From Azospirillum sp. (GTDB taxonomy: Bacteria; Pseudomonadota; Alphaproteobacteria; Azospirillales; Azospirillaceae): 64,000 bases of DNA. The position numbers were made by a program, and so were the translations under genes. The stretch is from the NCBI GenBank assembly GCA_027486405.1, contig JAIXPD010000060.1, forward strand, positions 1-64,000. Direction: 5' to 3'. Under the pieces are notes generated by a model. The model was given only the letters and a program-made list of their open reading frames with translations. It was not told the origin of the DNA and searched no databases. Positions 12,481-63,139 of the stretch are shown here, piece by piece (the stretch's first letter is position 1; every line of letters starts with the position of its first letter).

Positions 12481-13851
<1,371 letters not shown>

Positions 13852-39656: not shown

Positions 39657-39743
39657 GGGTAACACTCCTGAGGGGAAAAAGCGTCGATGAACCAAGAACG
39701 ATGACAGAGGGATGCGAAAGCCGGTGACAGGAAAGCGGGCCGG

Positions 39744-40886: not shown

Positions 40887-40917
40887 GATGAATGGCTTTC
40901 CATGGTCCTGGATGGGA

Positions 40918-41940
40918 TCAGCGCTTGCCGCGCCGCATCTTGGCGTAGGTGTCGAAGGCGACGGCCAGCACGATGATGACGCCCATGACGATCTGCTGGA
41001 AATAGGGCGAGACGTTCATCATCACCAACCCGTTCAACAGAACGCCGATCAGCAGCGCGCCGATCATCGTCCCGCCGATGCCGCCCATGCCGCCGAACAG
41101 GCTGGTTCCGCCGATGACGACCGACGCGATGATGCGCAGCTCGTAGGAGGTTCCGGCGATGGCCTCCGCCGACCCCAGACGGGCCGACAGCAGGAACCCG
41201 GCCAGACCGGCCAGGAAACCGACGATGACATAGACCGACACCAGCACGCGCGGCACGTTGATGCCGGTCAGGCGGGCGGCCTCCGGGTTGCCGCCGACGG
41301 CGTAGATCTGGCGGCCATAGCGGGTGTAGCGCAGCACGACATAGCCCGCCGCCGCGACGACGAACAGCACCAGCACCGGCACCGGAATGCCCAGCACGTC
41401 GCCCCGGCCCCACCAGCGGTACCCGGCGTCAAACCCGGCGATGGGCGCGCCATCGTTCATCAGCAGGGTGGCCCCGCGCCAGATGGTCATCCCGCCCAGC
41501 GTGACGATGAAAGGAGGAACGTTGAACAGCGTGATCGTCTTGCCGTGCAGATAGCCGGTCAGCGTGCCGATGGCGCAGGAGATGATGAGCGCCACCAGGA
41601 AGCCCATGCCGAAAAAGGCCCCGGCCCCGACGTTGGTGACGACCCAGGCCCCGGCCAGCGCGCCAAAGGCCAGGACGGAACCGACGGCCAGATCGACGCC
41701 GCCGGTCAGGATGACGCAGGTCATGCCGACGGCGACGATGCCGTAGATCGAGACCTCGGTCAGGATGTTGGTGACGTTGCGCACCGACAGGAAATTCGGG
41801 CTGCTGATGCCGAAGGCGACGCACAGGACGATCAGAAACAGCAGGACGCCGTATTTTTCCAGGAATTGGACGATGTCGAAGCCGCGCGGTTTTTTCGGCG
41901 GCTGGGTCGCCAGCGGGGTGGTGGTTGCGGCGGTGGTCAT
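40918..41940 (-). CDS. iatP: Inositol-type sugar ABC permease
   Basis: This 340-aa RbsC-type permease has about eight to ten helices, the GGVDLAVGSVLAFGALAGAW block and GGTSLFGGMGGIGGTMIGALL near the C-terminus. A start at 41955 (MKDKTM) is possible, but the ATG at 41940 has AAGGA at proper spacing and is preferred. It follows the ATPase closely and belongs with the binding protein at 43651. Assignment to inositol is by cluster context. Confidence 0.85.
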   Translation of the reverse strand: MTTAATTTPLATQPPKKPRGFDIVQFLEKYGVLLFLIVLCVAFGISSPNFLSVRNVTNILTEVSIYGIVAVGMTCVILTGGVDLAVGSVLAFGALAGAWVVTNVGAGAFFGMGFLVALIISCAIGTLTGYLHGKTITLFNVPPFIVTLGGMTIWRGATLLMNDGAPIAGFDAGYRWWGRGDVLGIPVPVLVLFVVAAAGYVVLRYTRYGRQIYAVGGNPEAARLTGINVPRVLVSVYVIVGFLAGLAGFLLSARLGSAEAIAGTSYELRIIASVVIGGTSLFGGMGGIGGTMIGALLIGVLLNGLVMMNVSPYFQQIVMGVIIVLAVAFDTYAKMRRGKR

Positions 41941-41956
41941 GGTCTTGTCCTTCATG

Positions 41957-43546: not shown

Positions 43547-43650
43547 CACCGGCCTCCCAAGCTGGAATGTGGAAACGGTGCTGGGACACGGGCCGACGGG
43601 GTGCGTCCGTCCGTGTCCCGCCCGTTCAGGCTTGCGTCAGGGGACGAGGG

Positions 43651-44607
43651 TTACTTGACCTCGCCGATGCGGTCGGCCTTGTCCAGATTGTCCTTGTTGA
43701 TGAGGGTCGGCTCCAGGGCCAGGCTCTTCAGCTCCGTCCCCTTGCGGATGTGATCGACCAGCGTGTTGAGCGCCGTGCGGATCTGGGTGCTCGGGCTTTG
43801 TTCCACCGTGGCGGCCATTTCACCGGCGCGGATCTTGCCCAGCGTTTCCGGCAGGGCGTCAAAGCCGATGACGACGGTCTTGGACTTGCCGCCGCTGGTG
43901 GAGCGGACGGCTTCCAGCGCGCCCAGCGCCATGTCGTCGTTGGAGGCGACGATCACGTCCGGCGGGTTGCTGGCGTTGGCGGTCAGGATGCCTTCGGTGA
44001 CGGTCAGGCCCTCGGCGCGCTTCCAGTTGGCGGTCTGGTCGGCGATCAACTGGTACTTGGACCCCGCCGCCGCGATGCCGTCGCGGAAGCCCTTGGCGCG
44101 GTCGATGGCGGAGCTGCTGCCCGGCTGGCCGCTGAGATGGACGATGCGGGCGCCGTTGGGGAAGGTCTTCGCCACCCAATTGGCCAGCGTGCGGCCACCG
44201 GCGACGTTGTCGGCCCCGACATGGGCCACCGGCTTGGACGTGCCTTCCACGCGGCGGTCCACGGTGACGACCGGGATCTTCTCGGCCAGCAGATCGTCGA
44301 TGGCCGGGGCCAGAGCCTTGGCGTCGTTCGGGGCGACGATGACGCCCTTGGCCCCCTGCACCACGGCGTTGGCCAGATCGGCCGACTGCTTGGGCGAGTT
44401 GCTCTGCGCGTCCACGACGGTCAGGTTGACGTCGAGCAGCTTGGCCTCGGCCTGAAGGGCGCGGTTCATGGCGATGACGAAGGGTTCGGACAGGTTTTGG
44501 AAGCTGACGACGATCTTCTCGCCCGCAGCCAGGGCAGAGAAGGAGGTCAGGGCCGTGGTCGCGGTCAGAACGGCACCGAAAGCGAGGGCGAGGGTGTTCT
44601 TGGACAT
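43651..44607 (-). CDS. ibpA: Inositol-type sugar ABC binding protein
   Basis: This 318-aa periplasmic protein has a signal peptide (cleavage at SALAAG, about residue 28) and the RbsB/peripla_BP_4 fold: VVDAQSNSPKQSADLANAV, GVIVAPNDAKAL, PVVTVDRRVEG and VIVASNDDMALGALEAV. Sugar-binding residues typical of the family (Asn/Asp/Arg) are present. It lies between iolA and the ATPase and is presumably the myo-inositol receptor. The 205-bp gap before it shows no clear IolR site, so it is probably read from iolA. Confidence 0.87.
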   Translation of the reverse strand: MSKNTLALAFGAVLTATTALTSFSALAAGEKIVVSFQNLSEPFVIAMNRALQAEAKLLDVNLTVVDAQSNSPKQSADLANAVVQGAKGVIVAPNDAKALAPAIDDLLAEKIPVVTVDRRVEGTSKPVAHVGADNVAGGRTLANWVAKTFPNGARIVHLSGQPGSSSAIDRAKGFRDGIAAAGSKYQLIADQTANWKRAEGLTVTEGILTANASNPPDVIVASNDDMALGALEAVRSTSGGKSKTVVIGFDALPETLGKIRAGEMAATVEQSPSTQIRTALNTLVDHIRKGTELKSLALEPTLINKDNLDKADRIGEVK

Positions 44608-44812
44608 GCATTCCTCCGGTTTGGATTTGTTAACGCGATGGGCGTGTTGTCAGACCTTGGGGCCTGATCGGTTTGGCTCCGGGACCGGGATGGTCCGTGG
44701 CCTTTTTGGCGTGTGTCTGGTGAGCCGACGGCGGGTGGGGATGGACCACCCGCCGCCAGCCCATCCCGCTGGCCAGCCTGAACCCACGACTGGCCTTACC
44801 CCATGGCCAGCC
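44608..44812 (-). other. Spacer between iolA and the binding-protein gene
   Basis: A short gap with duplicated words (tandem TGGCC..TTACCCCATGG near 44790-44820). No operator or hairpin was recognised with confidence. Confidence 0.4.
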
Positions 44813-46318
44813 TTACCCCATGGTCGGCATGACGAAATCGGCCCCGGCGCGGATGCCGGTCGGCCAGCGGGTGGTGATGGTCTTCAGCCGGGTGTAGAAA
44901 CGCACCCCTTCCGGCCCGTGCATGTGGTGATCGCCGAACAGCGAGCGTTTCCAACCGCCGAAGCTGTGGAAAGCCATCGGGACCGGGATCGGCACGTTGA
45001 TGCCGACCATGCCGACCTCGATCTCCGCGCCAAAGGCGCGGGCGGTGTCGCCGTCGCGGGTGAAAATCGCCGTGCCGTTGCCGAATTCGTGCGCGTTGAT
45101 GAGGTTGACCGCCGTCCGGTAATCGGGCACGCGGACCACCGCCAGCACCGGGCCGAAGATCTCCTCCTTGTAGATGCGCATGTCGGGCGTCACCCGGTCG
45201 AACAGCGTGCCGCCAAGGAAATAGCCGTCGCCAGCGCTGGGATCAGTCAACGCCACCGACCGGCCATCGACCACCAGTTCCGCCCCTTCGGCGACGCCAA
45301 GGTCGATGTAGCCACGCACCTTGTCGCGATGGGCGGCGGTGACGAGCGGACCCATGTCGGCGCTGGGGTCGGTGCCGGGGCCGACGCGCAGGGCGCGCAC
45401 CCGTTCCGTCAGCTTGGCGACCAGCGCGTCGGCGATGGCGTCCGTCACCGGCACGGCCACCGAAATCGCCATGCAGCGTTCGCCCGCCGAGCCGTAGGCG
45501 GCCCCCATCAGCGCGTCCACCGCCTGGTCCAGGTCGGCGTCGGGCATGATGATCATGTGGTTCTTGGCACCGCCCAGCGCCTGCACCCGTTTGCCGTGGG
45601 CGGCCCCGGTGGCGTAGATGTAATGGGCGATGGGGGTGGAGCCGACGAAGCTGACCGCCTTGACGTCCGGGTGGGTCAACAGGGCGTCGACCGCGACCTT
45701 GTCGCCATGGACGACGTTGAACACGCCGTCGGGCAGGCCCGCTCGCTTCAGCAGATCGGCCAGGAACAGCGCGGCGCTGGGCACCCGTTCCGACGGCTTC
45801 AGGATGAAGCAGTTGCCGCACGCGATGGCCACCGGGAACATCCACATCGGGACCATGGCCGGGAAGTTGAACGGGGTGATCCCGGCGACCACACCCAGCG
45901 GCTGGCGCAGCGAATGGCTGTCCACCCGGGTTCCGACATTCTCCGCGATTTCGCCCTTCAGCAGGTGCGGGCCGCCGCAGGCGAACTCCACCACCTCCAG
46001 CCCGCGCGTGACCTCGCCCAGCGCGTCGGAATGGACCTTGCCGTGTTCGGCGGTGATCAGGCTGGCCAGCCGGTCGGCGTTGGCCTCCAACAACTGTTTG
46101 AACGTGAACATCACGCGCGCGCGGCGCAGCGGCGTGGCGTTCGACCAGGCCGGGAAGGCGGCGCGGGCGGCGGCGATGGCGCGCTCAACCTCCGCCGTCG
46201 TGGCCAGCGGCACGCGGGTGCTGATTTGGCCGGTGGCTGGGTTGAAGACATCGCCGGTGCGTCCGCTGGTGCCGTCCACCCGCGCGCCGTCGATGAAATG
46301 CTGAACAATCTGGGTCAT
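44813..46318 (-). CDS. iolA: Methylmalonate-semialdehyde dehydrogenase (acylating)
   Basis: This 501-aa CoA-dependent aldehyde dehydrogenase converts malonate semialdehyde to acetyl-CoA and CO2, the last step of inositol breakdown. The catalytic Cys lies in [14 protein letters not shown], and the MmsA/IolA-specific [16 protein letters not shown] and [16 protein letters not shown] segments are intact. It follows iolE by about 105 bp in the same direction. The same enzyme class also serves valine degradation, but the context fixes the inositol role. Confidence 0.93.
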
Positions 46319-46423
46319 GGAGAGGGCGATCTTTCAAGAGAGGCGGCCAAAATGGCGGCGGCAGCGCCCTGGCCCGACCGATGCGCGCGACTGGGCCGCA
46401 CCGGCGGGCCGGAGGAGCGTGGC

Positions 46424-47314
46424 TTACAGGCCGAGTTCGGCGACCAGCGCGCTGAGATGCGCGCGGCCCTTGGTGACGTAGGTGAGCGGGTGGGCCTTGG
46501 CGGGATCCTGTTCGGCTTCGATGACCAGCCATTGCCCGGCGTAATTCTTGGCCTTCAGCGCCGCCAGCACCGCCGGGAAATCGACGCAACCGTCGCCCGG
46601 AACCGTGAACACGCCGTTGACCACGGCGTCGAGGAAGCTGCTGTCGCTGGCCTTGGCCGCCGCCAGCACCTCGGCGCGCACGTCCTTGCAATGGACGTGG
46701 TTGATGCGGTGGCCCCAGGCGGAAATCACATCCAGCGGTTTGCCGCCCGCAAAGGTCAGGTGGCCGGTGTCAAGCAGGATGCCGACGCTGTCGCCGGTCG
46801 CCTCGGCAAAGCGGTTGATCTCGTCGGGCGTCTCAACCACCGTGCCCATGTGGTAGTGATAGGCCAACGGCGTGCCCTGTTCGCGCAGGTAATCGCCGAA
46901 TTCGGTCATCTTGCGGCCGAACTCCGCCCATTGTCCGGCGTGGATGGTCGGGCGCTTGGACAGCGGCGTGCCGCGTTCGCCATGGACGCAGCCGGTGGTT
47001 TCCGCCACGACCATGACCGAGCAGTTGAACGCCTTCAGCAGGCGCAGATGGGGCTGCACCGCCTCGATCTCTTCGGCGACGCTGCGTTCCAGCAGACCGG
47101 CGCTGTACCAGCCCGACACCAGCGACAGGCCATGACGATCCAGGATCGGGCGCAGGGCGTCGGGATCGCGCGGGAATTTGTGGCCCAGCTCGAACCCGTC
47201 GAAGCCGGCCTGACGGCCTTCGGCGAGGCAAACCTCCAGCGGGGTGTCGCCACCCAGCTCCTGCATGTCGTCGTTGCTCCAGGCGATCGGGTTGACGCCA
47301 AGACGAACGGTCAT
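46424..47314 (-). CDS. iolE: Inosose dehydratase
   Basis: This 296-aa TIM-barrel enzyme dehydrates 2-keto-myo-inositol to 3D-trihydroxycyclohexane-dione. IolE signatures are GVNPIAWSNDDMQELGGDTPLE, AYHYHMGTVVE and LLDTGHLTFAGG with metal-binding His and Glu/Asp, followed by INHVHCKDVR. Length matches the family. It lies 56 bp after iolD. Confidence 0.94.
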   Translation of the reverse strand: MTVRLGVNPIAWSNDDMQELGGDTPLEVCLAEGRQAGFDGFELGHKFPRDPDALRPILDRHGLSLVSGWYSAGLLERSVAEEIEAVQPHLRLLKAFNCSVMVVAETTGCVHGERGTPLSKRPTIHAGQWAEFGRKMTEFGDYLREQGTPLAYHYHMGTVVETPDEINRFAEATGDSVGILLDTGHLTFAGGKPLDVISAWGHRINHVHCKDVRAEVLAAAKASDSSFLDAVVNGVFTVPGDGCVDFPAVLAALKAKNYAGQWLVIEAEQDPAKAHPLTYVTKGRAHLSALVAELGL

Positions 47315-47370
47315 AATCGGGTGCTCCCAGACGAACGGAGAGAAGGATCAAGAACGGAGAAAAACGAGGC

Positions 47371-49218
47371 TCAGCGGCGCTGCCGGGCCTTGGCGGCGAC
47401 GTAGCGCGCGCGCGCCGCCGTCACCTCCGGCCGGGTGGAAACCTCCGGCACCGGCACATCCCACCACGCCCCGCCCTCTTTGGTGGAGGGCAGCGGATCG
47501 GTGTTGATGACGATGGCGTAGGTCACGGGCGACGCCTTGGCGCGCTCCAGCGCGTCGGACAGGGCGGCCACGCCCGTCACCTGCTCCGTCACCGCGCCCA
47601 AGGCGCGCAGATGGGCGGCGAAATCGACGGCGGGCAGAACGTCCGTTTCAAAATGGGCGTCGCGCAGCAGATTGTTGAAGGGGGCACCGCCGCAGGCGTT
47701 TTGCAGGCGGTTGATGCAGCCATAACCCCGGTTGTCGAGCAGGACGACGACAAGCTTGCGCTTCATCATCACCGACACGGCCAGTTCGGAGTTCATCATC
47801 ATGTAGCTGCCGTCGCCGACCATGACGAAGACCTCGCGCTCCGGCTCGGCCATCTTCACGCCCAGACCCCCGGCGATCTCATAACCCATGCAGGAGAAGC
47901 CGTATTCCAGGTGATAGCCGCCGGGCCGCGCCGTGCGCCACAGCTTGTGCAATTCACCGGGCAGGCCGCCCGCCGCGCAGACGACGACGCCATCCTCCCC
48001 CGCCGCGCGGTTGACCGCGCCCAACACCTGGGCGTCGGTCGGCAGATCCAGACCGGCGTCGGCGGTCGCGGTGTCGACCACGCGGTTCCACAGGCTCATG
48101 TGCTCCTGCGCGGTGGCCCGCCAGGCGGTCGGTGCCACCCAACCGGCCAGACCGGCCGTCAGCGACTCCAGCCCGCGCGCGGCGTCGGCGACCAGGGGCA
48201 AGGCCCCGCCCTTGGCGGCGTCGAAGGCGGCGACGTTCAGCCCGATCAGGCGACCGGCGGGGTTGCCGAACACCGACCAGGAGGCGGTCGTGAAATCGGC
48301 CAGCCGGGTGCCGACGGCCAGAACGACGTCGGCCTCCTCGGCCAGCGCGTTGGCGGCGCTCGATCCGGTGACGCCGATGGAGCCGACGTTGCACGGGTGG
48401 TTCCAGGCCAGGGCGCCCTTGCCCGCCTGGGTTTCGGCCACCGGGATGCCGTGGCGGGCGGCGAAATCGGCCAGCGCGGCGCAGGCCCCGCTGTAATGCA
48501 CGCCGCCACCGGCGACGATCAGCGGCTTGGCCGCGCCGCGCAGCGCGGCGAGCACGTCGGCCAGTTCGTCGCGGTCGGCCTCCGGGCGGCGGGTGCGGTG
48601 GATGGTCCGTTCGAAGAAGGCCAGCGGGAAGTCATAAGCCTCCGCCTGGACATCCTGCGGCAGGCAGAGCGTGACCGGGCCGCAGTCCGCCGGGTCGGTC
48701 AGCACCTGGATGGCCCGGCGCAGGCTGGGCATGAGCTGTTCGGCCCGCGTGATGCGGTCCCAGAAGCGGGAGACCGGGCGGAAGCAATCGTTGGCCGACA
48801 CGGTGAAATCGCCCGGCTGTTCCACCTGTTGCAGCACCGGATCGGGCGCGCGGGTGGCGAAGGTGTCGCCCGGCAGCAGCAGCACCGGCAGCCGGTTGAC
48901 GTGGGCGAGCGCTGCCGCCGTCACCATGTTGACCGCCCCCGGCCCGACCGATGTGGTGCAGGCCATCATCCGGCGGCGGGCGTTGGCCTTGGCGAAGGCG
49001 ATGGCGGCGTGCGCCATGCCCTGTTCGTTGTGGGCGCGGTAGGTCGGCAGCGTGTCGCGGGCGGCGTGCAACGCCTCGCCCAGACCGGCGACGTTGCCAT
49101 GGCCGAAGATGGCCCACACCCCGGCGAAAAGCGGCTGTTCCCGCCCATCGACGGTGACGAATTGGGCGCTCAGAAATTTGACCAGAGCCTGGGCCACGGT
49201 GAGGCGAACGGTCGCCAT
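47371..49218 (-). CDS. iolD: 3D-trihydroxycyclohexane-1,2-dione hydrolase
   Basis: This 615-aa thiamine-diphosphate enzyme opens the ring to give 5-deoxy-glucuronate. The catalytic Glu region AHNEQGMAHAAIAFAK near residue 60, HVNRLPVLLLPGDTFATR and the ThDP-binding MVGDGSYMMMNSE are all intact and IolD-typical. The ATG at 49218 is supported by an immediate family N-terminus. An IolR operator at 49363-49376 lies about 145 bp upstream, so a promoter for iolD-iolE-iolA probably starts here. Confidence 0.94.
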   Translation of the reverse strand: MATVRLTVAQALVKFLSAQFVTVDGREQPLFAGVWAIFGHGNVAGLGEALHAARDTLPTYRAHNEQGMAHAAIAFAKANARRRMMACTTSVGPGAVNMVTAAALAHVNRLPVLLLPGDTFATRAPDPVLQQVEQPGDFTVSANDCFRPVSRFWDRITRAEQLMPSLRRAIQVLTDPADCGPVTLCLPQDVQAEAYDFPLAFFERTIHRTRRPEADRDELADVLAALRGAAKPLIVAGGGVHYSGACAALADFAARHGIPVAETQAGKGALAWNHPCNVGSIGVTGSSAANALAEEADVVLAVGTRLADFTTASWSVFGNPAGRLIGLNVAAFDAAKGGALPLVADAARGLESLTAGLAGWVAPTAWRATAQEHMSLWNRVVDTATADAGLDLPTDAQVLGAVNRAAGEDGVVVCAAGGLPGELHKLWRTARPGGYHLEYGFSCMGYEIAGGLGVKMAEPEREVFVMVGDGSYMMMNSELAVSVMMKRKLVVVLLDNRGYGCINRLQNACGGAPFNNLLRDAHFETDVLPAVDFAAHLRALGAVTEQVTGVAALSDALERAKASPVTYAIVINTDPLPSTKEGGAWWDVPVPEVSTRPEVTAARARYVAAKARQRR

Positions 49219-49618
49219 TCTCGCTACTCCAAATGGGGCCGGTTGTGGCCCGTGTTCCTCCGGGATCGCCGCAAGGGTGGGGCTGCGATCCGTTGTGTGT
49301 TTGGAACCGGCGCTGGGGGCGTCCGGCAGACGGCATTTTTCTTCCGTCTTGCTTTCTTATTTAGAATATACGTTCCAAAAGCGGCTGTAAAGGGGCTGTT
49401 GTTGGTCGGACGGATGTTTTGCGGTGCGGGATGTTTTGTCGTGGCTGCGCGTTTTGTCACGCCCCCGGAGTCGCACCCAGCGTCCGGGCGGTCGGCGGGG
49501 TGGTGGGAAAACAGGACGCATGGAATTTATACGGCGTCCGGGTGTTTGCTATCGGGCGTGTCACCCGACCGTTCCGCCGATCGCGCAACCGATCCGCCAA
49601 CCGACCATTGGACCCATC
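49219..49618. other. Upstream region of iolD
   Basis: This 400-bp gap carries the iolD promoter and the leader of the small lipoprotein gene. The only clear element is the IolR operator at 49363-49376; an AT-rich TTATTTAGAATATACG run overlaps it. Confidence 0.5.
49363..49376 (-). promoter_or_regulatory. IolR operator upstream of iolD
   Basis: AGAA-TATACG-TTCC, again preceded by TT, is nearly identical to the site before iolR (TTAGAATA..(T/C)GTTCC). Confidence 0.65.
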
Positions 49619-49879
49619 ATGCCGATTCCCCCGCTGACCCTGCTGTGCCTGGCGCTTCTCACCGCCTGCGGCGGATCGGGTGCGGTGCATCCCCTCACCG
49701 CCGCCGGTTCCACCCCTGCGGCGGCGACCCGGCCGGAGATTTTGCGGACCAGCGCCACCCACACCGGGCTGACGGTGCTGCCGCGCAGCCGGGGCGGTGG
49801 GCGGGGCGACGGGATGCCCGCCACCCGCTTTCCCACCCCGCTGTCGGCGCTGGATCCGCAGGTGGCGGCAACGGAGTGA
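49619..49879 (+). CDS. Small putative lipoprotein opposite the iol genes
   Basis: This 86-aa protein starts MPIPPLTLLCLALLTACGG with a lipobox LTAC, so Cys17 would be lipidated after signal cleavage. The mature part is about 70 residues, rich in Thr, Ala, Pro and Gly, with no domain I recognise. It is the only plus-strand gene in the inositol region and ends 12 bp before the iolC stop (convergent). A short coding frame in GC-rich DNA could be spurious, but the lipobox and charge pattern favour a real gene. Confidence 0.55.
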   Translation: MPIPPLTLLCLALLTACGGSGAVHPLTAAGSTPAAATRPEILRTSATHTGLTVLPRSRGGGRGDGMPATRFPTPLSALDPQVAATE

Positions 49880-49891
49880 TCCGGCGACGGA

Positions 49892-51817
49892 TCAGGCCGC
49901 CGCGCGCGTCGCCTCGGCCCGCTGCTCGTCCCAGAAGGCGATGAGGCGGCGGTAGGCGGTGGCCATGGTGTCGATGGCCTCGGCGTCGGACATGGTCCCA
50001 GAGAGCCACCCGTCGGCGGCGGCCCCGAACAGGGTGCGGCCCACGGCAAACCCCTTGCACACCGGCTGCCGGGCGGCGAGCGCCAGACCGGCTTTCAACG
50101 CCTCCTCCGGCGCGTCCAGCCCCAGGATCAGCACGCCCCGGCACAGCGGATCGCGGGCGGCGACCACGGCGGAAATCGCGTCCCACGCCGCTTGGCTGGT
50201 CTGCGAGGGCAGTTTCCACCAATCGGGCAGAACCCCCAGATCGTAAAAACGGTCCATGGCGCGGGCGATGGTGCGGTCGTCCACCGCCGACTCCTTGGGC
50301 GGGATGATTTCCAGCAGGAATTCGTGGTTGGTTCCCCGGCAGGCGGCGAACAGCGCCAGGATCTGCCGTTCCTGGTCGTCGCGCAGGGCCGGTTCATCGT
50401 CCGGGTGCAGGAAGGCGAGGCACTTCACCACATGCTCGGCGGGCCATTCGCGGATCGTCACCGCCGCGTCGGGGCCACCCTCGAAGCGCAGCGGGCGCGA
50501 TCCCGGCAGTTCGATCGGGCGGCCGATCCAGGCGTTGGTTCCGGTCAACTCCTCCAAGGCGCTCTGGCCGTGCAGGCCGTCGAGCAGCATGCCGAAGCCG
50601 TCGCGGTCCCCGGCCCCTTGGCGGGCGGCGGTCAGCGCCAGGCTCTTGAAATCGGCGATGCGCGCCGGGTCCGCCCCGTGCTTTTCGGCCATCGCCTCCA
50701 ACTGGGCGCGGTGGTCGATGGCGAAGGCCAGAACCTCCGGCCAATCGCGGCGGCGGGTGGTGGCCCAATGGATGTGCGACAGGGTGGCGTCTTCGCGCAA
50801 ACGGGTGGTCGGGCTGCCGTGCGTCAGGAAATGGGTCAGTTCGGTCCAGGTCGGGACCGCCGGGGCGCAGCCGTGGCGCGACACCGCAAAGGCCCCGCAG
50901 GCGTTGGCGTAGGTGCAGCAATCCGCCAGCGGCGCGTCGCGCAGCCAGCCGCGCAGGAAGCCCGACATGAAGGCGTCGCCCGCCCCCAGCACGTTGTAGA
51001 CCTCCACCGGGAAGCCGGGGCCGCGAACGCCGAGGTCGAGATTGTCCGGCACGTCGCCGGAAAAGACGACGCAGCCCATCGGCCCGCGCTTGCACACCAA
51101 CGTCGCCGAGGTCAGGCGGCGGACGGCGCGCAGGGCGGCGACGGTGTCGGTGCTGCCACCGGCGATGTGGAACTCCTCCTCCGTCCCGACGATCAGATCG
51201 CAGCCCGGCAGGATGGTTTGCAGAAGCGCGGTGACGCCGCCGTCGGCGACGAAACGCTCCTCGCCCAGCCCGTGACCGGTCAGCTTCCACAGCACCGGGC
51301 GGTAATCGATGTCGAACACCACCTTCACGCCGTTGGCGCGCGCCAGCCGCATCGCCTTGCGCATGGCGGCGTCGGTGCCGGGGCTGGAAAAATGGGTTCC
51401 GCTGACGACGATGGCGCGCGACGACGCGATGAACGCCTCGTCCACATCATCCTCGCAGATCGCCATGTCGGCGCAGTTTTCCCGGTAGAAGATCAGCGGG
51501 AAGGTCTTGCGGTCGCGGATGCCCAGGATGACCAGCGCGGTCAGGCGTTGGGGGTCGGTGATGACGTGGCTGGTGTCCACCCCCTCGCGGATCAATTGTT
51601 CGCGGATGAAGCGGCCCATATGCTCGTCGCCCACACGGGTCAGCAGCGCCGATTTCAGCCCCAGCCGCGCGGTGCCGACGGAAATGTTGGTGGGGCAGCC
51701 GCCAACGTATTTCGCGAAGCTTTGCACGTCTTCCAACCGGCTGCCGATCTGCTCGCCGTAGATGTCAACCGAAGACCGGCCAATGGAAATGACGTCGAGG
51801 GCGCGTTCGTGAGGCAT
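49892..51817 (-). CDS. iolC: 5-dehydro-2-deoxygluconokinase fused to DUF2090 aldolase-like domain
   Basis: This 641-aa protein has a PfkB kinase (about 1-330; GRSSVDIYGEQIG, YVGGCPTNISVG, and the C-terminal NVLGAGDAFMSGFLRG with the catalytic Asp) followed by a DUF2090 domain (about 335-641). The kinase phosphorylates 5-dehydro-2-deoxy-gluconate. In proteobacterial IolC fusions the second domain is annotated as the 2-deoxy-5-keto-gluconate-6-phosphate aldolase, which would explain the absence of iolJ here. ATG 51817 is preferred over a TTG one codon earlier. Two IolR operators lie upstream at 52011-52053. Confidence 0.92.
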   Translation of the reverse strand: MPHERALDVISIGRSSVDIYGEQIGSRLEDVQSFAKYVGGCPTNISVGTARLGLKSALLTRVGDEHMGRFIREQLIREGVDTSHVITDPQRLTALVILGIRDRKTFPLIFYRENCADMAICEDDVDEAFIASSRAIVVSGTHFSSPGTDAAMRKAMRLARANGVKVVFDIDYRPVLWKLTGHGLGEERFVADGGVTALLQTILPGCDLIVGTEEEFHIAGGSTDTVAALRAVRRLTSATLVCKRGPMGCVVFSGDVPDNLDLGVRGPGFPVEVYNVLGAGDAFMSGFLRGWLRDAPLADCCTYANACGAFAVSRHGCAPAVPTWTELTHFLTHGSPTTRLREDATLSHIHWATTRRRDWPEVLAFAIDHRAQLEAMAEKHGADPARIADFKSLALTAARQGAGDRDGFGMLLDGLHGQSALEELTGTNAWIGRPIELPGSRPLRFEGGPDAAVTIREWPAEHVVKCLAFLHPDDEPALRDDQERQILALFAACRGTNHEFLLEIIPPKESAVDDRTIARAMDRFYDLGVLPDWWKLPSQTSQAAWDAISAVVAARDPLCRGVLILGLDAPEEALKAGLALAARQPVCKGFAVGRTLFGAAADGWLSGTMSDAEAIDTMATAYRRLIAFWDEQRAEATRAAA

Positions 51818-52240: not shown

Positions 52241-53944
52241 TCAGGCCGACCGGCGGACCGGCGGAGCCACGCTCGCCCCCGGTGCCACGTAGTAGGGCAC
52301 GCTGGCGCGCGGTTCCGGTTTGCGGTTGCGGATCACGTCGGCCAGCTTTTCCGCCATCATGATGGTGGGGGCGTTCAGGTTGCCGGTGATGATGCGCGGC
52401 ATGATCGAGGCGTCGATCACCCGCAACCCCTCCAGCCCATGCACCCGGCCTTGCCCATCAACCACCGCCTGATCGTCGGTTCCCATCCGGCAGGAACAGG
52501 ATGGGTGATAGGCGGTTTCGGCGTGGTGGCGGACGAAGGCGTCGAGATCGGCGTCGGTCTGGCAATCGGCGCTGGGGCTGATCTCCCGCCCGCGATAGGG
52601 GTTGAGGGCGGCTTGCCGCATGATCGTCCGGGTGATGCGGATGCCGTCGCGGAACTCCTGCCAATCCTGGGCGTCGGCCATGTAGTTGAACAGGATGCTG
52701 GGCGGGGCGTTGGGATCGCGCGACACCGCCCGCACCCGCCCCTTGCTGGGCGAACGCATGGAGCCGACATGCGCCTGGAAGCCGTGGGCCTGCACCGCGT
52801 TGGTGCCGTTGTAGCTGATCGCCACCGGCAGGAAATGATATTGCAGGTTGGGCCACGGCACATCGTCGCCGGTGCGGATGAAGCCGCCCGCCTCGAACTG
52901 GTTGCTGGCCCCGACACCGGTCCCCAAAAACAGCCATTCCGCCCCGATGGCGGGCTGATTCCACCATTGCAGCGCCGGATAGAGCGAAACCGGCTGCGTG
53001 CATTCATACTGGATGTACATTTCCAGATGGTCTTGCAGATCGGCCCCGACGCCGGGCAGGTCGATCACCTGCGGCACGCCCAGATCGCGCAGCAGATCCG
53101 ACGGGCCGACGCCCGACCGGTGCAGGATGGCGGGCGAGCCGATGGCCCCGGCGCACAGCAGCACCTCGCGCCGGGCGTGGACCGTGTGCGGGGTGGTGCC
53201 GCGCCGATAGGCGACGCCCACCGCCCGCCGCCCGTCGAACAGGATGCGGTCGGTCAGCGCGTGGGTGACGATGGTCAGGCCGGGCCGCCCCTTGGCGCGG
53301 TCGAGATAGCCGCGCGCCGTGCTGGACCGCCGCCCCTGGCGGGTGACGGTGCGGTCCATCGGGCCGAAGCCCTCCTGCCGGTAGCCGTTGAGGTCGTCGG
53401 TGCGGGCGTAACCGGCCTGCACCCCGGCCTCCACCATCGCCTCATAGAGCGGGTTGACGCCGGGCTTGGCGGTCGTCACCTGCACCGGGCCGTCGCCGCC
53501 GTGGTAATCGTTCGGGCCGACGTCGCGGCTTTCCGCCTTTTTGAAATAGGGCAGGCAGTCCAGGTAACTCCAGTCCTCCAACCCCGGCTGTTCGGCCCAG
53601 CCGTCGTAATCCAGCGCGTTGCCCCGGATGTAGCACATGCCGTTGATGAGGGAGGAGCCGCCCAGCCCCTTGCCGCGCCCGCACTCCATCCGGCGGTTGT
53701 TCATGTGCGGTTCAGGTTCGGTGACAAAGGCCCAGTTGTAACGCCGCCCTTGCAGCGGAAAGGCCAGCGCGGCGGGCATCTGGGTGCGGAAATCCAAGCG
53801 ATGGTCCGGCCCGCCCGCCTCCAGCAGCAGGACGCTGACGCCGGGATCCTCGGTCAGGCGGCTGGCCAGCACGTTGCCCGCCGAACCGGCCCCGATGATG
53901 ATGTAGTCGTAGTCGCGCGTTGCGATGGACGTGACGATGGACAT
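52241..53944 (-). CDS. betA: Choline dehydrogenase
   Basis: This 567-aa GMC-family FAD enzyme oxidises choline to betaine aldehyde (and can go on to betaine) at the membrane. The FAD motif is [17 protein letters not shown], followed by [18 protein letters not shown]; the catalytic His is in [13 protein letters not shown] and the C-terminal block [16 protein letters not shown] is typical of BetA. It follows betB by 71 bp and ends with a Pro/Ala-rich tail. With betB and gbcAB it supplies the start of betaine catabolism. Confidence 0.93.
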
Positions 53945-54015: not shown

Positions 54016-55485
54016 TCAGAAGACGGAGCCGTATGGCCCCAACTCCACCTGCACCGACTTCACGCGGGTGTAGTGATCGAACGACTCCACGCCGTTTTCC
54101 CGGCCGATGCCGGATTGCTTGAAGCCGCCGACCGGCATTTCCGGCGGGGATTCGCCCCAGGCGTTGATCCAGCAGATCCCGGCCTCCAGCCGGTGGATGA
54201 CGCGGTGGGCGCGGGCAAGGTCGGTTGTCACCAGCCCGGCGGCCAGCCCGTACCGGCTGTCGTTGGCCCGCGCGATGACCTCCTCCTCCTCGTCGAACAC
54301 CAGGATCGACAGGACCGGGCCGAAGATTTCCTCCTGCACGATGCGCATGCGGTCCAGGCAATCGGTGAAGATGGTGGGGGCGACGTAGGCCCCGCGCGCG
54401 AAAGCGTCGCCATAGGGCGGGCCGCCGCCCGCCAGCAGCCGCGCCCCTTCGGCCTTGCCGCTGGCGATGAAGCCCAGCACCTTGTCCCGGTGGGGGAAGC
54501 TGGCGAGCGGGCCGAAATTCGTGTCCGGATCCAGCGGATCGCCCATGCGCACGCGCTCCACCCGGGCCAGCAGGCGGTCTTCGAACGCCGCCTTGACGCT
54601 GCGGTGGACAAACACCCGCGTGCCGTTGGTGCAGACCTGTCCGGAACTGTAGAAATTCGCCATCATGGCGATGTCGGCGGCGCGGTCCAGATCGGCGTCG
54701 GCGAAGACGATCAGCGGCGATTTGCCGCCCAGCTCCATCGTCACGTCCTTCAACGTCGATCCACCCGCCGCCGCCATCACCGCCTTGCCGGTGTCCACCC
54801 CGCCGGTGAAGGAGATCTTCTCGATCCCCGGATGGCCGCTGAGGAGCGCGCCGACCCGGCCATCGCCCTGCACCACGTTGAACACGCCGTCCGGCAGACC
54901 GGCTTCGCTGTAGATCGCGGCCAGACGCAGCGCCGACAGCGGTGTGATTTCGCTGGGCTTGAAGATCATGGCGTTGCCCGCCGCCAGCGCCGGGGCCGAT
55001 TTCCACAGCGCGATCTGAATCGGGTAATTCCACGCCCCGATTCCGGCGACCACGCCCAGCGGCTCCCGCCTTGTGTAGACGAAGGAGGTGGGGCGGAGCG
55101 GGATTTGCCGCCCTTCCAGCGCCGGGGCAAGACCGGCGTAATATTCCAGCACGTCGGCCCCGGTGGCGATGTCCACCGCGCGGGTTTCGCTGATCGGTTT
55201 GCCGGTGTCGAGCGTCTCCAGTTCCGCCAACGCGTCGTTGCGCTCGCGCAGCAGGGCGACGGCGCGGCGCAACACCCGGGCGCGCTCCATCGCCGGGCGG
55301 GCGGCCCAGTCGGCTTGCCCGGTCCGGGCGCTGTCCACCGCACGGTCCACGTCGGCGGCGGTCGCCTGCGCCACCTCCGCCAGCGTTTCGCCGGTGGCGG
55401 GGTTGACGGTGGTGAACCAGCCATCGCCGGTTGCCGGTGTCGATTGGCCGTGAATGTAGTGGGTTTGCCGCCCGAACCGCGTCAT
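54016..55485 (-). CDS. betB: Betaine-aldehyde dehydrogenase
   Basis: This 489-aa aldehyde dehydrogenase converts betaine aldehyde to glycine betaine with NAD(P). Key parts are [20 protein letters not shown], the catalytic Glu in [12 protein letters not shown] and the catalytic Cys in [14 protein letters not shown], where VCTNGTRV is the BetB signature. The ATG at 55485 gives the E. coli-like length. A BetI-type operator lies 80 bp upstream, but no betI gene is next to it. Confidence 0.94.
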
Positions 55486-55770: not shown

Positions 55771-56736
55771 ATGGAGACCATCGGCTTTTTGCTGGTGCCC
55801 GATTTCTCAATGATCGCCTTCACCGCCTCGGTCGAGCCGCTGCGGCTGGCCAACCACATCAGCGGGCGCACGCTGTACCGCTGGGTGCTGCTGTCGCGCG
55901 ACGGCGGGGCGGAGCGCGCGAGCAACGGTGTGGGCGTGCTCTGCGACCATGGGCTGGACGACGCGCCGCCGTTGCCCACCCTGGTGGTGTGCAGCGGCAT
56001 CGGCGGCCACCGCTACGACGACCGGGCGGTGTTGTCCTGGCTGCGGCGGGCGGCGACGCGCGGGACGCAACTGGGGGCGGTGTGCACCGGCAGCCACATT
56101 CTGGCGCGCGCCGGGCTGCTCGACGGCTACCGCTGCACCATCCATTGGGAAAATCTGGCGGGGATCGCCGAAACCTTTCCGGAGATCGAGGCGACGGGGG
56201 AGCTGTTCACCATCGACCGCAACCGCTTCACCTGCGCGGGCGGCACCTCGGCCACCGACATGATGTTGCACCGCATCGCCGCCGCCCACGGCGAAACGCT
56301 GGCCATCGACATCGCCGAACAGATGCTGCACGACCGCATCCGCCCCGGCCACGCCCACCAGCACGACGCCATCCAGCCCAACCCGGTGATGGAGTGCAAG
56401 GAACTCAACGACGTCATCCGGCTGATGCAGGACAATTTGGAAGACCCGCTGGATCTGGCCACCCTGTCGGCGATGCTGGGCCAGTCGCGGCGCAACGTGG
56501 AGCGGCTGTTCCGCAAGTATCTCGATTGCTCGCCCGCCCGCCATTATCTGGGCCTGCGGCTGAAGCGGGCGCGGCAATTGCTGTCGCAAACCTCGTTGCC
56601 GGTGATCGAGGTGGCGGTGTGCTGCGGCTTCGTGTCCGCCACCCATTTCAGCAAATGCTACCGCGACCATTTCGGCGTGCCGCCGCGCAGCGACCGGCAG
56701 GGCCAGCGCGCGCGGGTGGCGGTGGGGGCGCTGTAA
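55771..56736 (+). CDS. GlxA-family AraC-type regulator, betaine cluster (GbdR-like)
   Basis: This 321-aa regulator has a DJ-1/PfpI-like amidotransferase fold (about 1-185; GFLLVPDFSMIAFTASVEPLRLAN, GAVCTGSHILARAGLLDG) and an AraC DNA-binding domain (about 215-305; LATLSAMLGQSRRNVERLFRKY and AVCCGFVSATHFSKCYRDHFG). Regulators of this class, including GbdR and CdhR of Pseudomonas, control choline, betaine and carnitine breakdown. The ATG at 55771 begins homology directly. The gene for the ABC/chemoreceptor fusion follows after 30 bp and is probably co-transcribed. Confidence 0.88.
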   Translation: METIGFLLVPDFSMIAFTASVEPLRLANHISGRTLYRWVLLSRDGGAERASNGVGVLCDHGLDDAPPLPTLVVCSGIGGHRYDDRAVLSWLRRAATRGTQLGAVCTGSHILARAGLLDGYRCTIHWENLAGIAETFPEIEATGELFTIDRNRFTCAGGTSATDMMLHRIAAAHGETLAIDIAEQMLHDRIRPGHAHQHDAIQPNPVMECKELNDVIRLMQDNLEDPLDLATLSAMLGQSRRNVERLFRKYLDCSPARHYLGLRLKRARQLLSQTSLPVIEVAVCCGFVSATHFSKCYRDHFGVPPRSDRQGQRARVAVGAL

Positions 56737-56766
56737 TCCGATCGGTTTGTTGTGAAGGAGCGAGCC

Positions 56767-58497
56767 ATGACGGTGGGCACGGGGGACGCGGTTTCGCTTC
56801 GGGGGGTGTGGGCGGTCTACGGACAGGCATCGGCGGAGGCCCGGCGTGTGATCGCCGCGCGCGCCGACCGGGCGGCGGTGGCCGCGACCGGCGTCGAGGT
56901 CGCCGTGGCCGGTCTGTCGCTGGACATCGGCGGTGGGGAGATCCTGGCGCTCCTCGGGCGGCTGGGATCGGGCAAATCAACCCTGCTGCGGCTGATGAAC
57001 CGGCTGGTCGATCCGGTCGCCGGAACGGTGACGGTCGGCGGGGTAGCGTTGGCCGATCTGTCGCCGCGCGCGCTCGCCGCCTTTCGCCGCGAACGGCTGG
57101 GCATGGTCTTCGCCTCCGCCGCCGCGTTGCTGGCCAACCGGACGGTCGCGGGCAATGTCGAATTCGCCCTGGAGGTGATGGGGCAGGGGCGGAGCCAGCG
57201 GCGCGAACGCGCCATGGCGGCGCTGTCGCAATTCGGACTGGCCGAGCGGGCGGGGGCGGCGCTGGCCGATTTGTCCGCCGCCGACCGGCTGCGCGTGGGC
57301 TTCGCCCGCGCCATCGTCACCGCGCCGCGCCTGCTGCTGATCGACGACCCCTTTGCCAGCCTGCCCGCGCTGGAGCGGTCGGAACTCACCGAGGATCTGG
57401 CCCGTGTGGCGCGCGCGTTGGGATCCACCATGGTGCTGGCGATGCGCGACGCCGAGGACGCTATGCGGGTGGCCGACCGGGTGGCGGTGCTGAAAGGCGG
57501 GGCGCTGGTGGCGGTGGACACGCCCGACGCGCTGCTGGAACGGTCGGATGAGAACGCCGAGGTCCGTTTCTTTCTGCACCGCATCGCCGAACAGCGGGCG
57601 GTGCGGCGGCGGGCCGAACGGCTGGACGGGGCGATCAAGGGCTTTGAGGCGGCGGTGACGCAGGCCTTGGGCGCGGTCGGCCAATCGGCGGGGGCGCTCG
57701 ACGCCACCGCCCGCACGCTGAAAGGCATTTCCAGCGAAACCGGCGGGCGGGTGATCGAAACCGCCGCGTCGGTCGGCCAGACCGCCGCCAGCGTCGGCGC
57801 GATGGAGGCGGCTGCTCAACAAATGGCCGGTTCGATGGATGAAATCGGGCAGCATGTCGGCCAATCGGTCGCCATCGCGTCCGCCGCCGTCGCCCAGGTG
57901 CAGGACACCGACGACAGCGTGCGTGGCCTGATCGGCGCGGCCCGCAGCATCGTCGGCATGGTCGGCGTCATCAGCGCCATCGCCGCGCGCACCCGCCTGC
58001 TGGCGCTGAACGCCACCATCGAATCGGCGCGGGCGGGGGAGGCGGGGAAGGGCTTCGCCGTCGTCGCCAGCGAGGTCAAGCAACTGGCCGAACAGACCGC
58101 GCGTGCGACGGAGCAGATCGCCGCACAGGCGGCGGGCATCCAGGCCACCACCGACGGGACCATCCAGGCGATCGCCCGCATCAAGGACACCATCGGCGAC
58201 ATGAACGCCCTGTCCGGCGCGGTGGCGGCGGCGGTGGAGCGGCAACGCAGCTCCGCCGACGACATCGGCCAGCGCATCGCCGAAGTGACGGCGACGGCGG
58301 AGGCGCTGAGCGCGGCCATCGAACGGTTCGGCAGCGGGGCCGAGCGCACCGACGCCGCCACCAGCCATGTGCTGGACGCCGCCGATGGTCTGGCCGCGTT
58401 GACCGACGGGCTGCGCGCGCGGGTGGACGGTTTTCTGGCCGACATCCGCGACGGCACGGCGGCGGACGGCGATCCGTCCAACCGCCGCGCCGGTTGA
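56767..58497 (+). CDS. Degenerate ProV-like ABC ATPase fused to a soluble chemoreceptor signalling domain
   Basis: This 576-aa soluble protein has two parts in one frame. Residues 1-270 follow ChoV/ProV of betaine importers: conserved N-terminal insert (10-58), intact Walker [10 protein letters not shown] (64-72), but Q-loop Gln changed to Ala116 (VFASAAALL), signature LSAAD (169-173) in place of LSGGM, Walker B ending Asp193-Asp194 instead of Asp-Glu, D-loop ASLP, and H-loop His replaced by Arg227. Residues 276-560 form a methyl-accepting signalling hairpin whose tip reads [19 protein letters not shown], with Arg408 and Arg410 in place of the usual Gln and Asn. No membrane segment is seen. 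The ATG at 56767 has AAGGAG upstream. I infer a receptor that senses nucleotide or transporter state for betaine-like compounds. Confidence 0.85.
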
Positions 58498-58677: not shown

Positions 58678-59796
58678 ATGCCGGATGGCGCTTGGAACGG
58701 GGGGCCGCCGGGCGACGCGGCCAAACGCGCGACCGCGAAAGAAGCGGTGCTGTCGGTCGGCTTCATCCTGGCCAACCGCTTCACCTTGACCGCGCTCGCG
58801 ACCTTTCTCGACGCGCTGCGGCTGGCGGCGGACGATGGCGACGGATCGCGGCAAATCCGCTGCCGCTGGACCATCATGGGGTCGGGGGCCGAGCCGGTGC
58901 GGTCGAGCTGCGGCGTGTCCATCGGCGCGTGGGAGGCGTTCCAGGATCCGCGCGGCTTCCATTACATCGTCGTCGTCGGCGGTCTGCTCCACCCCGGCCC
59001 GCAATTGGACGACGAGACGGTCGCCTATCTGAAGGCGGCCGCCGCCGCCGGGGTGACGCTGGTCGGGGTCTGCACCGGCGGTTTCGCCCTGAGCCGCATC
59101 GGCCTGATGAACCGGCGGCGCTGCTGCGTGAGCTGGTATCACTACAGCGATTATGTGGAGGAGTTCCCGGACGTCGAGCCGGTGGCCGATCAGCTCTACG
59201 TCGTTGACCGCGACCGCATCACCTGTTCGGGCGGTGCCGGGGTGGCCGATCTGGCCGCGTACCTGATCGAACGGCATCTGGGCCGGGCCTGCGCGCAGAA
59301 GACCATGCACATCATGCTGATCGACAAGGCCCGTCCCGCCAACCAGCCGCAACCCCAGCCGCCGACCCACAACGAGGTGGTGAACGACCGGGTGCGCCGC
59401 GCCCTGCTGCTGATGGAACAGCATCTGGCCGATCCGCTGACGGTCGAGGACATCGCCCGCAAGGTCAACATCAGCACCCGCCAGTTCGAACGGCTGTTCC
59501 GCTTTTCCACCGGCGTGAGTCCGACCGCCTTTTACCGGGTGCTGCGCCTGCGCTATGGCCTGTGGCTGCTGCGCAACTCGACCCGCTCCATCACCGACAT
59601 CGCGGTGGAGTGCGGGTTTGCCGATTGCGCCCATTTCTCGCGCCAATTCCGCGAGGGGTTCGGCGTGTCCCCGTCCGCCCTGCGGCGCGGCGGGCCGGAG
59701 GTGGAGGGACTGACCCTGCCCACCGACGGCCCGTCGGCCCTGCTGCGCGCCTTCGATCTGCGCAGCGTTCCGCCGGACCGGCGGATTTACGAGTAG
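58678..59796 (+). CDS. Second GlxA-family AraC-type regulator, betaine cluster
   Basis: This 372-aa regulator has the same plan as the gene at 55771: amidotransferase-like domain (about 25-210; GVCTGGFALSRIGLM) and AraC domain (about 245-340; VEDIARKVNISTRQFERLFRFSTG, IAVECGFADCAHFSRQFREGFG). The ATG at 58678 follows AGGGAGAGCAGG and begins homology after a short variable tail. Which of the two is the true GbdR functional equivalent cannot be told from the sequence; this one is closer in length to GbdR. It has a Gly/Pro-rich N-terminal leader of about 20 residues and a Pro/Gln-rich linker near 222-232. Confidence 0.88.
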   Translation: MPDGAWNGGPPGDAAKRATAKEAVLSVGFILANRFTLTALATFLDALRLAADDGDGSRQIRCRWTIMGSGAEPVRSSCGVSIGAWEAFQDPRGFHYIVVVGGLLHPGPQLDDETVAYLKAAAAAGVTLVGVCTGGFALSRIGLMNRRRCCVSWYHYSDYVEEFPDVEPVADQLYVVDRDRITCSGGAGVADLAAYLIERHLGRACAQKTMHIMLIDKARPANQPQPQPPTHNEVVNDRVRRALLLMEQHLADPLTVEDIARKVNISTRQFERLFRFSTGVSPTAFYRVLRLRYGLWLLRNSTRSITDIAVECGFADCAHFSRQFREGFGVSPSALRRGGPEVEGLTLPTDGPSALLRAFDLRSVPPDRRIYE

Positions 59797-61759: not shown

Positions 61760-63139
61760 ATGGCCGTCAGCGTCTTCGATGTGTTCAAGATCGGCATCGG
61801 GCCGTCCAGTTCGCACACCGTCGGGCCGATGAAGGCCGCCGCCGCCTTCGTCACCGGTCTGGCCGACCGCGCCGACCGGACGGCGGTGGAGCGGGTGACG
61901 GCGGAGCTGTACGGCTCGCTCGCCCTGACCGGCGTCGGCCACGCCACCGACAGCGCGGTGCTGCTGGGGTTGTTGGGGGAATGGCCCGACACCGTCGATC
62001 CCGAACGGATCCCGGCCCTGGTCGAGGGGATTCGGCGCGACCGGCGGCTGGCGCTGGGCGGCGGTCCCGTCATCGCCTTTGACCCCGACCGGGATTTGCT
62101 GCTGCACAAGGGCGAGACGCTGCCCGGCCACCCCAACGGCATGCGGCTGACCGCGCGCGACGCCGCCGGAACCCTGCTCGACACCCGCGTCTATTACTCC
62201 GTCGGCGGCGGCTTCGTCGTGACGGAGGAGGAGTTGCACCGCAACGAACCCGCGCCCGGGGTGCCCGACGTTCCCTATGATTTCAACTCCGCCGACGAGA
62301 TGCTGGCGTTGGCGCGGGACAGCGGGCGCAGCATCGCCGCCCTGGTCCGCGACAACGAGCGCGTCACCCGCAGCGACGAGGAGATCGATGAGGGGATGCG
62401 CCGCATCTGGGGGGCGATGAAAGGCTGCGTGGCGCGTGGCATCACCCAGGACGGCGTTCTGCCCGGTGGACTGAAGGTGCGCCGCCGCGCCGCCGCGCTC
62501 TACCGCGACGCGTGCAGCAAGGCGGAATCGGCGCTGCGCGACCCGATGGCGGTGATGGACTGGATCAGCGTCTACGCCATCGCGGTGAACGAGGAAAACG
62601 CCGCCGGTGGACGGGTGGTGACGGCCCCGACCAACGGGGCGGCGGGCATCGTTCCGGCGGTGCTGCATTACTACGACCGCTTTTGCCACAACGCCAGCGA
62701 GCGCGGGATCTTCGATTTCCTGCTGACCGCCACCGCCATCGCCACGCTCTACAAAAAGAACGCCTCAATCTCCGGGGCGGAGGTCGGGTGCCAGGGCGAG
62801 GTCGGGGTGGCCTGTTCGATGGCGGCGGGCGGGCTGGCCGCCGCGATGGGCGGAACCCCGGCGCAGATCGAAAACGCCGCCGAAATCGGCATGGAGCACA
62901 ATCTGGGCCTGACCTGCGACCCCATCGGCGGGCTGGTGCAGATCCCCTGCATCGAACGCAACGCGATCGGCGCGGTCAAGGCGATCAACGCCGCCCGTCT
63001 GGCCCTGAACAGCGACGGCCTGCACCATGTCTCGCTCGACAAGGTGATCCGCACCATGCGGGAAACCGGGGCCGACATGCAGACGAAATACAAGGAAACG
63101 TCGCTTGGCGGCTTGGCCGTCAACGTCGTCGAGTGCTGA
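61760..63139 (+). CDS. sdaA: L-serine ammonia-lyase (iron-sulfur type)
   Basis: This 459-aa single-chain serine dehydratase converts L-serine to pyruvate and ammonia using a 4Fe-4S cluster. The N-terminal domain begins [19 protein letters not shown]; the cluster cysteines lie in [26 protein letters not shown] and PCIERNAIG, and the chain ends in the typical C-terminal Cys (VNVVEC). A TTG two codons earlier could also start it; ATG 61760 has CAAGG nearby. In Pseudomonas a serine dehydratase sits in the glycine betaine cluster, taking glycine-derived serine to pyruvate, which fits here. Confidence 0.93.

Follow-up and report, generated by a model that had tools for sequence, protein, structure and literature searches.

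A chemoreceptor typically senses by way of a ligand-binding domain of its own or of a binding protein docking onto that domain. Signalling proteins that read the activity of an ABC transporter have precedents in BceAB-BceS and PstSCAB-PhoU-PhoR, as described in the available part of PMC6978683; those systems consist of separate proteins with a histidine-kinase output, whereas the protein described here joins a transporter-type subunit to an MCP. Its other closest described relative is ProV/OpuAA, the ATPase subunit of the OpuA-type importers (PDB 7ahc/7ahd; TIGR01186). According to the accessible text of PMC10710835 the OpuA ATPase subunit carries tandem CBS domains, and the accessible text of PMC8199443 reports that it can leave its complex in vitro. 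On the receptor side the nearest systems are the soluble, membrane-free MCPs of the common Azospirillum length class; A. brasilense has 38H and 36H chemoreceptor arrays (PMC6759762, available portion).

In the literature searched, with subscription journals mostly outside it, the combination of an ABC ATPase with an MCP appeared once. Table 3 of the survey PMC8547431 gives ABC_tran as the LBD type of one MCP cluster comprising one sequence; that receptor, an MCP with ABC_tran as its non-signalling part, is known from the table row alone. The accessible parts of PMC1183210 and PMC8561660 contain nothing on an ABC ATPase–MCP architecture. The first-pass annotation of our locus had stated that no receptor of such architecture was described, which is nearly right, the tabulated sequence being the exception. 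Chemoreceptors are known; as far as our searches show, an ABC ATPase input domain is new to description apart from that row. New in the present analysis are a copy with intact ATPase motifs, selection on both halves of the protein, loss of the methylation motif and a relocated binding-protein gene.

The window is the whole stretch of DNA that was analysed, 64,000 nucleotides of an Azospirillum sp. (contig JAIXPD010000060.1, positions 1–64,000). On its forward strand, 56767–58497 forms one frame of 576 codons, open throughout, which encodes a ProV/OpuAA-type ABC ATPase domain (residues 1–270) followed by an MCP signalling domain (residues 276–560; 57592–58446, forward strand). The sequence AAGGAG, a likely ribosome-binding site shared with the A. 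griseum copy, lies 6 bases 5' of the ATG at 56767 (56755–56760, forward strand). Pfam matched ABC_tran at residues 49–197 (E 7.6e-23) and MCPsignal at residues 372–530 (E 2.8e-25), the latter at 89.6 bits against a family cut-off of 34.6. That one protein contains both domains, as first read from the open frame, is thus nearly certain. The closest NCBIfam models for the N-terminal half were ProV TIGR01186 (1.1e-54), PRK10070 ProV (5.2e-48) and ChoV TIGR03415 (3.7e-47), and the ProV-family cut-offs were missed widely (186 against 326.6 bits for TIGR01186; 161.1 against 483.75 for ChoV). The domain search found no HAMP, CBS or other sensor domain in the fusion at E ≤ 0.01; two weak, sub-threshold matches to coiled-coil DUFs fell inside the MCP half. 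No transmembrane helix is evident, the highest 19-residue Kyte-Doolittle mean being 1.9, in the MCP helix at 388.

By sequence the closest solved relative is OpuAA, which matches fusion residues 35–275 with E 1.6e-38. All 50 Foldseek matches listed for the structure model were ABC ATPases or ABC transporters, OpuA among them (7ahc_C, E 1.1e-14, rank 6). The model was built from a thin alignment of 16 rows (mean pLDDT 71, pTM 0.50) and is reliable for the ATPase half only, where pLDDT exceeds 85 across most of residues 51–260. In the modelled junction helix (residues 264–320; 57556–57726, forward strand) the confidence declines from 74 to 51, and the coiled coil after the helix is poorly predicted. 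The match to OpuA ends inside this helix, at residue 275 of the query and 270 of the chain. As aligned, the ATPase domain stops where OpuAA/ProV would enter its C-terminal regulatory part and continues into the MCP coiled coil. The fusion therefore resembles ProV/OpuAA in its ABC fold and in sequence over residues 35–275, and differs in having an MCP module in the C-terminal place that in OpuA holds the CBS domains, and in having no adjacent permease gene.

The fusion was matched at E ≤ 1e-65 in 13 of the 45 genomes of the genus, the window's own included, at full length or nearly, and 32 had no match at this threshold. Three lineages can be told apart: the window's copy with that of A. griseum, the copy in genome G040, and a main clade of ten genomes together with A. 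lipoferum 4B. Full-length copies in other genomes of the genus are 39–48% identical to that of the window. Twelve of the 13 copies read through both halves in one frame; the copy in G018 is frameshifted beside an N, which may reflect either a sequencing error or genuine loss of the gene. The fusion was absent from all 37 other genomes of the family Azospirillaceae; relaxing the threshold added two genomes, which matched via the MCP half only. Among the matches listed for two samples that overlap, one of 385 genomes from the class and one of 398 from the phylum (at most three candidates scored per genome), the window's own was the only fusion, and the next-best class-level match among those listed covered the ATPase half only (363.8 bits against 844.3). 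Within the genus the gene appears to have been lost in G034, where about a dozen codons of each gene end remain between the binding-protein gene and fae (L186:3575–3798). It was probably also lost in G021, where a few codons resemble the 5' end of the fusion (L187, about 13064–13222) and fae is missing. With losses in two close relatives and no match in 32 of 45 genomes, the gene is dispensable.

For the MCP half we aligned the fusions with 42 ordinary MCPs chosen by similarity to them, 41 from the genus and one from a sister genus; three distant rows were removed by hand, and a length filter kept the frameshifted G018 copy outside the set. The alignment spans 287 of 288 columns, practically gap-free, and the fusion appears to belong to the 38H length class. 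The tip-core residues N415, E419, R422 and E425, which we take to be the equivalents of Tsr 381, 385, 388 and 391, are kept in all 13 aligned fusions and in all 42 other MCPs. The full hairpin and this tip core are shared with the soluble MCPs, from which the fusion differs by its ABC ATPase-fold input, by having no HAMP or transmembrane part and by the missing methylation motif. Arg408 and Arg410 (57988–57996, forward strand), reported by the first-pass annotation in place of the usual Gln and Asn, are indeed exceptional, with Q in 41/42 and N in 42/42 non-fused MCPs. Such changes occur, however, only in the copies of the window and A. griseum and in that of G040, which has R and K. The remaining 10 of the 13 aligned fusions keep Q and N, so that the arginines are ruled out as a family hallmark. 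We presume these positions to be Tsr 374 and 376, where Q and N are usual, not defining for MCPs. In the window's fusion the changes might weaken the contact with CheA/CheW; its genome has 15 CheW-domain matches.

The standard methylation motif, scored by a consensus that we take to be [ASTG]2-x2-[EQ]2-x2-[ASTG]2, was found in none of the 13 fusions and in 41 of the 42 non-fused MCPs. Scored at three homologous places, the E/Q pair occurs in 10, 2 and 1 of the 13 fusions, against 31, 30 and 41 of the 42 ordinary receptors. Of these pairs the main clade retains the first, outside a complete motif, and the window's fusion has QQ at the second place. Its third site is degraded to AAVERQRS (residues 488–495; 58228–58251, forward strand). 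We read the loss as a probable loss of CheR/CheB adaptation.

The fusion gene lies between two different GlxA/AraC-type regulator genes. The upstream one (DJ-1_PfpI + HTH_18; 55771–56736, forward strand) ends 30 bases before the ATG, with identical spacing in A. griseum, and is perhaps co-transcribed with the fusion. The second (58678–59796, forward strand) clusters with the GbdR-like regulators of relatives. In both the window and A. griseum the fusion adjoins probable betB and betA genes, in the window a betaine aldehyde dehydrogenase gene (54016–55485, reverse strand) and a choline dehydrogenase gene (52241–53944, reverse strand), both probable and named from their translations. Further off are a GbcB-like gene (29872–31017) and a GbcA-like gene (31014–32300), both on the reverse strand and clustering with the relatives' genes that match GbcB and GbcA, and a gene for L-serine dehydratase (61760–63139, forward strand). 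An apparent inositol-catabolism cluster with its own ABC importer, also named from translations, occupies 38649–51817 of the reverse strand. In the window's genome proVW and the binding-protein gene lie about 11–14 kb from the fusion, the proVW pair at about 11 kb, and the binding-protein gene is not adjacent to the fusion. A HAD-family gene lies there between proW and the binding-protein gene (L037:11709–12731), and one is found near proVW in many relatives too.

The assignment to a betaine gene cluster, right for the window, becomes sharper in the relatives. In the ten main-clade genomes the gene order is binding protein (OpuAC), fusion and formaldehyde-activating enzyme (Fae), and an A. oryzae record has the same order around the fusion as G020, the one representative used for the family searches of the neighbourhood. 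The binding protein is ChoX-like (TIGR03414, below the cut-off). Genes like gbcA, gbcB and that for GbdR occur in all ten neighbourhoods; their representatives match the respective NCBIfam models, though with scores short of the cut-offs. Seven of the ten also have a gene for a purU-like formyl transferase. Other genes of the betaine-demethylation cluster are presumably those named dgcA, dgcB and sox. Because betaine demethylation releases formaldehyde, Fae fits the main-clade cluster. The context in G040 is different, with purT, DUF2325 and CoA-transferase genes.

The main clade also differs in where the binding-protein gene of the importer stands. We examined L040–L049, from the ten main-clade genomes, and L179–L181, L183, L184 and L191–L196. 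About 12 kb separate proVW from the fusion in all nine readable fusion genomes; G030 was left out of this count, its contig ending inside the presumed proV. No OpuAC binding-protein gene follows proVW in any of the 11 readable main-clade genomes (nine with the fusion, two scarred), whereas this same gene follows proW in all six comparison genomes (G000, G016, G035, G011, G040 and G007), three of which have a HAD-family gene in between. At E ≤ 1e-60 the binding protein had a single match, directly upstream of the fusion, in nine of the ten main-clade fusion genomes; G025 has a second, more distant match elsewhere. Since proVW has no binding-protein gene of its own there and a close copy stands upstream of the fusion, the importer's binding-protein gene was most likely moved beside the fusion in the main clade. 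No permease gene lies directly beside the fusion. Canonical ProV is found in 43 of the 45 genomes of the genus, with or without the fusion, so mere co-occurrence is uninformative. In the main clade there is, however, genetic linkage of the fusion with the binding protein of the importer and with betaine demethylation.

Taken together, the data support describing the product as a soluble MCP, linked to betaine/choline genes, whose input domain is a degenerate relative of ProV. We propose as the most economical working model, quite possible although short of probable, that the fusion is a cytosolic Azospirillum chemoreceptor whose ProV-type ATPase module senses the state of a ProVW-type importer and signals to CheW/CheA. 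A duplicated ATPase subunit of a glycine betaine/choline importer would here substitute for the transmembrane sensor and HAMP parts. The module would sense the importer's working state on ProW, instead of ProV or paired with it, or through its own nucleotide occupancy, and its state would pass through the junction helix and the MCP hairpin to CheW/CheA, so that cells would steer by importer activity or cell energy while living on betaine. As the methylation motifs are lost, the fusion would report a steady state and not an adapting temporal gradient. What we infer is that the protein signals to CheA, that it docks on a permease or senses nucleotide, how its ligand logic works and that it lacks adaptation. 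In favour of the model we count the spread of the fusion over 13 genomes, purifying selection on both halves, the intact ATPase half in G040, the displaced binding-protein gene and the betaine-demethylation neighbours in the main clade, the retained Walker A and Walker B residues, the ordinary alignment of the MCP half, the CheW-domain matches, the precedents for reading a transporter's state and the in-vitro release of the OpuA ATPase subunit. A narrower form of the model is more doubtful, though still possible: that the ProV-like subunit, catalytically dead in most members, docks as part of the fusion on the permease for betaine and turns the importer into the ligand-binding part of a methylation-free chemoreceptor, with cells swimming by transport flux. 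The motif-intact member in G040 would then resemble an evolutionary intermediate still able to hydrolyse ATP. If the importer-state reading is true, it would link transport directly to behaviour at the level of genes and would make uptake- or metabolism-dependent taxis, an old question, testable with one gene. It suggests that some Azospirillum soil bacteria may steer by the state of their own importer instead of binding the nutrient directly.

The nucleotide-binding site was compared with that of 42 non-fused ProV-type ATPases. Walker A is intact in the window's fusion, as first noted (GRLGSGKST with its GKST, residues 64–72; 56956–56982; this and the following sites on the forward strand), and the Walker B aspartate D193 is kept. 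The catalytic residues that the first-pass annotation listed as replaced are all correctly identified, each position holding the canonical residue in 42/42 of the non-fused homologues. Ala116 (57112–57114) stands at the Q-loop glutamine, which is Gly in the 11 main-clade fusions. LSAAD (residues 169–173; 57271–57285) replaces the LSGGM/Q signature, with A171 and A172 at the two invariant glycines. D194 (57346–57348) takes the place of the catalytic glutamate, P200 (57364–57366) that of the D-loop aspartate, which all 11 main-clade fusions retain, and R227 (57445–57447) that of the switch (H-loop) histidine. The main-clade fusions have, besides the Q-loop Gly and the retained D-loop Asp, lost the signature glycines and carry V, A, M or G at the glutamate and Q at the histidine. 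Catalytic motifs are thus lost in 12 of the 13 fusion genomes and decayed in two of the three lineages. In G040, however, the Q-loop Gln, LSGGM, the catalytic Glu, the D-loop Asp and the His are all intact, and the identity of its ATPase half to canonical ProVs from the genus reaches 71%. A general loss of the ATPase across the fusions is therefore ruled out, and its decay, judged by these motifs, is no family trait.

The retention of Walker A GKST in 12/12 fusion rows and of the Walker B Asp in 13/13, while the Glu, the signature and the His decay, speaks for a stand-alone nucleotide sensor. Such a protein would bind ATP or ADP without any permease, the degenerate site holding the nucleotide long enough to set the state of the MCP, and would report cell energy (energy taxis). 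A protein without a transmembrane part would suit this role, and loss of the methylation motif suits a state reporter. We nevertheless consider it rather unlikely, as it leaves the main-clade linkage to the importer's binding protein unexplained and decay of the signature should hinder a stable ATP sandwich.

How far the ATPase half has diverged was measured at 146 sites conserved among 30 canonical ProVs, almost all from the genus. Of these sites 133 are retained in G040, 88 in the main clade and 71 in the window. In the main clade the losses concentrate in the catalytic regions (12 of 32 sites kept, against 76 of 114 elsewhere; p 0.004), whereas in the window these regions are not specially depleted (14 of 32 against 57 of 114; p 0.55). 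The window's ABC half being divergent throughout, its motif losses merge with the background; the loss of motifs noted initially is hence right residue by residue, and neither family-wide nor in excess of this background. In the segment after the Q-loop the main clade keeps 10 of 12 conserved sites and the window 7 of 12. Within the main clade, 16 of the 22 sites at residues 119–140 show no variation, compared with 119 of 239 outside them, a p of 0.046 that is non-significant given the 14 regions tabulated. This segment, placed as in other ABC structures, is presumably the part that touches the permease in ABC importers, and a permease-docking surface in the fusion's ATPase half is weakly favoured by the pattern. 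The motif-intact ATPase, the two decayed lineages and the scars of gene loss form a natural series in which to study the change from enzyme to sensor.

Across seven pairs of fusions dN/dS was 0.05–0.29 for the ABC half and 0.045–0.11 for the MCP half, lower for the MCP half in six of the seven; six pairs of canonical ProV gave 0–0.05. These estimates indicate purifying selection on both halves and tight constraint on the signalling half. With values above those of canonical ProV yet below 1, the ATPase half is under relaxed selection that still constrains it. On the proposed reading, the ATPase subunit of an ABC transporter serves as an input domain that has been selected across species after loss of catalytic residues in most of them. 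Faster evolution than in canonical ProV, the disappearance of half of the canonical-conserved sites in the window and the lost methylation motifs would also fit a passive adaptor, in which decay would have left the ATPase half as no more than a dimerising cap, with the MCP half setting the array's baseline and sensing nothing. This is unlikely, and clearly so, given an ABC dN/dS well below 1 in all seven pairs, the retained Walker A and the strong main-clade linkage to betaine genes.

The output could also run in the reverse direction, the fusion regulating the importer, with its ATPase-like half competing with ProV for ProW and its MCP half tethering or gathering it at the pole. The MCP half occupies the place of the OpuAA C-terminal regulatory part, and OpuA ATPase subunits are reported to detach in vitro (PMC8199443, available text). 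The better conservation of the MCP half in six of seven pairs and the invariant tip core point instead to signalling, and we regard regulation of the importer as distinctly improbable. Returning to the importer-state reading, several observations count against it as well: the weak signal at the presumed docking surface, where the window keeps just 7 of 12 sites, the relaxed ABC half, the distant binding-protein gene in the window's genome, the different context in G040, the changes at the tip and the dispensability of the gene.

That a sequencing or assembly error joined two genes is almost certainly wrong, since A. griseum has a 97% copy of the window's fusion and two closed replicons each carry a complete one: plasmid unnamed4 of A. 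oryzae KACC 14407, where the gene is annotated 'methyl-accepting chemotaxis protein', and AZO_p1 of A. lipoferum 4B. A joining error is ruled out by these conserved copies, the frameshift beside an N being confined to G018. The fusion is a real, conserved family; the first-pass annotation had named a joining error and the absence of homologous fusions from related genomes as grounds for rejecting it, and we found intact copies on closed replicons and matches in related genomes of the genus.

The trees place the ATPase half as a descendant of ProV-type subunits, and they favour, without proving, one origin of the fusion. Support for a single origin was 71/75 in the ABC tree from all columns, 92/83 without the motif columns and eleven distant ATPase rows, which were dropped between the first and the second ABC tree, and 90/87 in the MCP tree. 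For the ABC set the frameshifted G018 copy was retained after deletion of its X. The MCP tree pairs the window with G040 (99/95), a pairing that would need two separate decays of the ATPase. In the ABC tree the two decayed lineages pair instead (97/94); their branches are long, and a grouping of window and G040 is not rejected (p 0.32).

MCP genes were also seen beside other proV genes. Among 29 loci with 1.5-kb flanks they adjoin such genes in two, in G011 (L101) and G035 (L108). In the window's genome an ordinary membrane MCP gene is divergent from a second proV-proW operon (L070:7382–10629, C35). MCP genes standing beside proV genes thus offer a possible route to the fusion.
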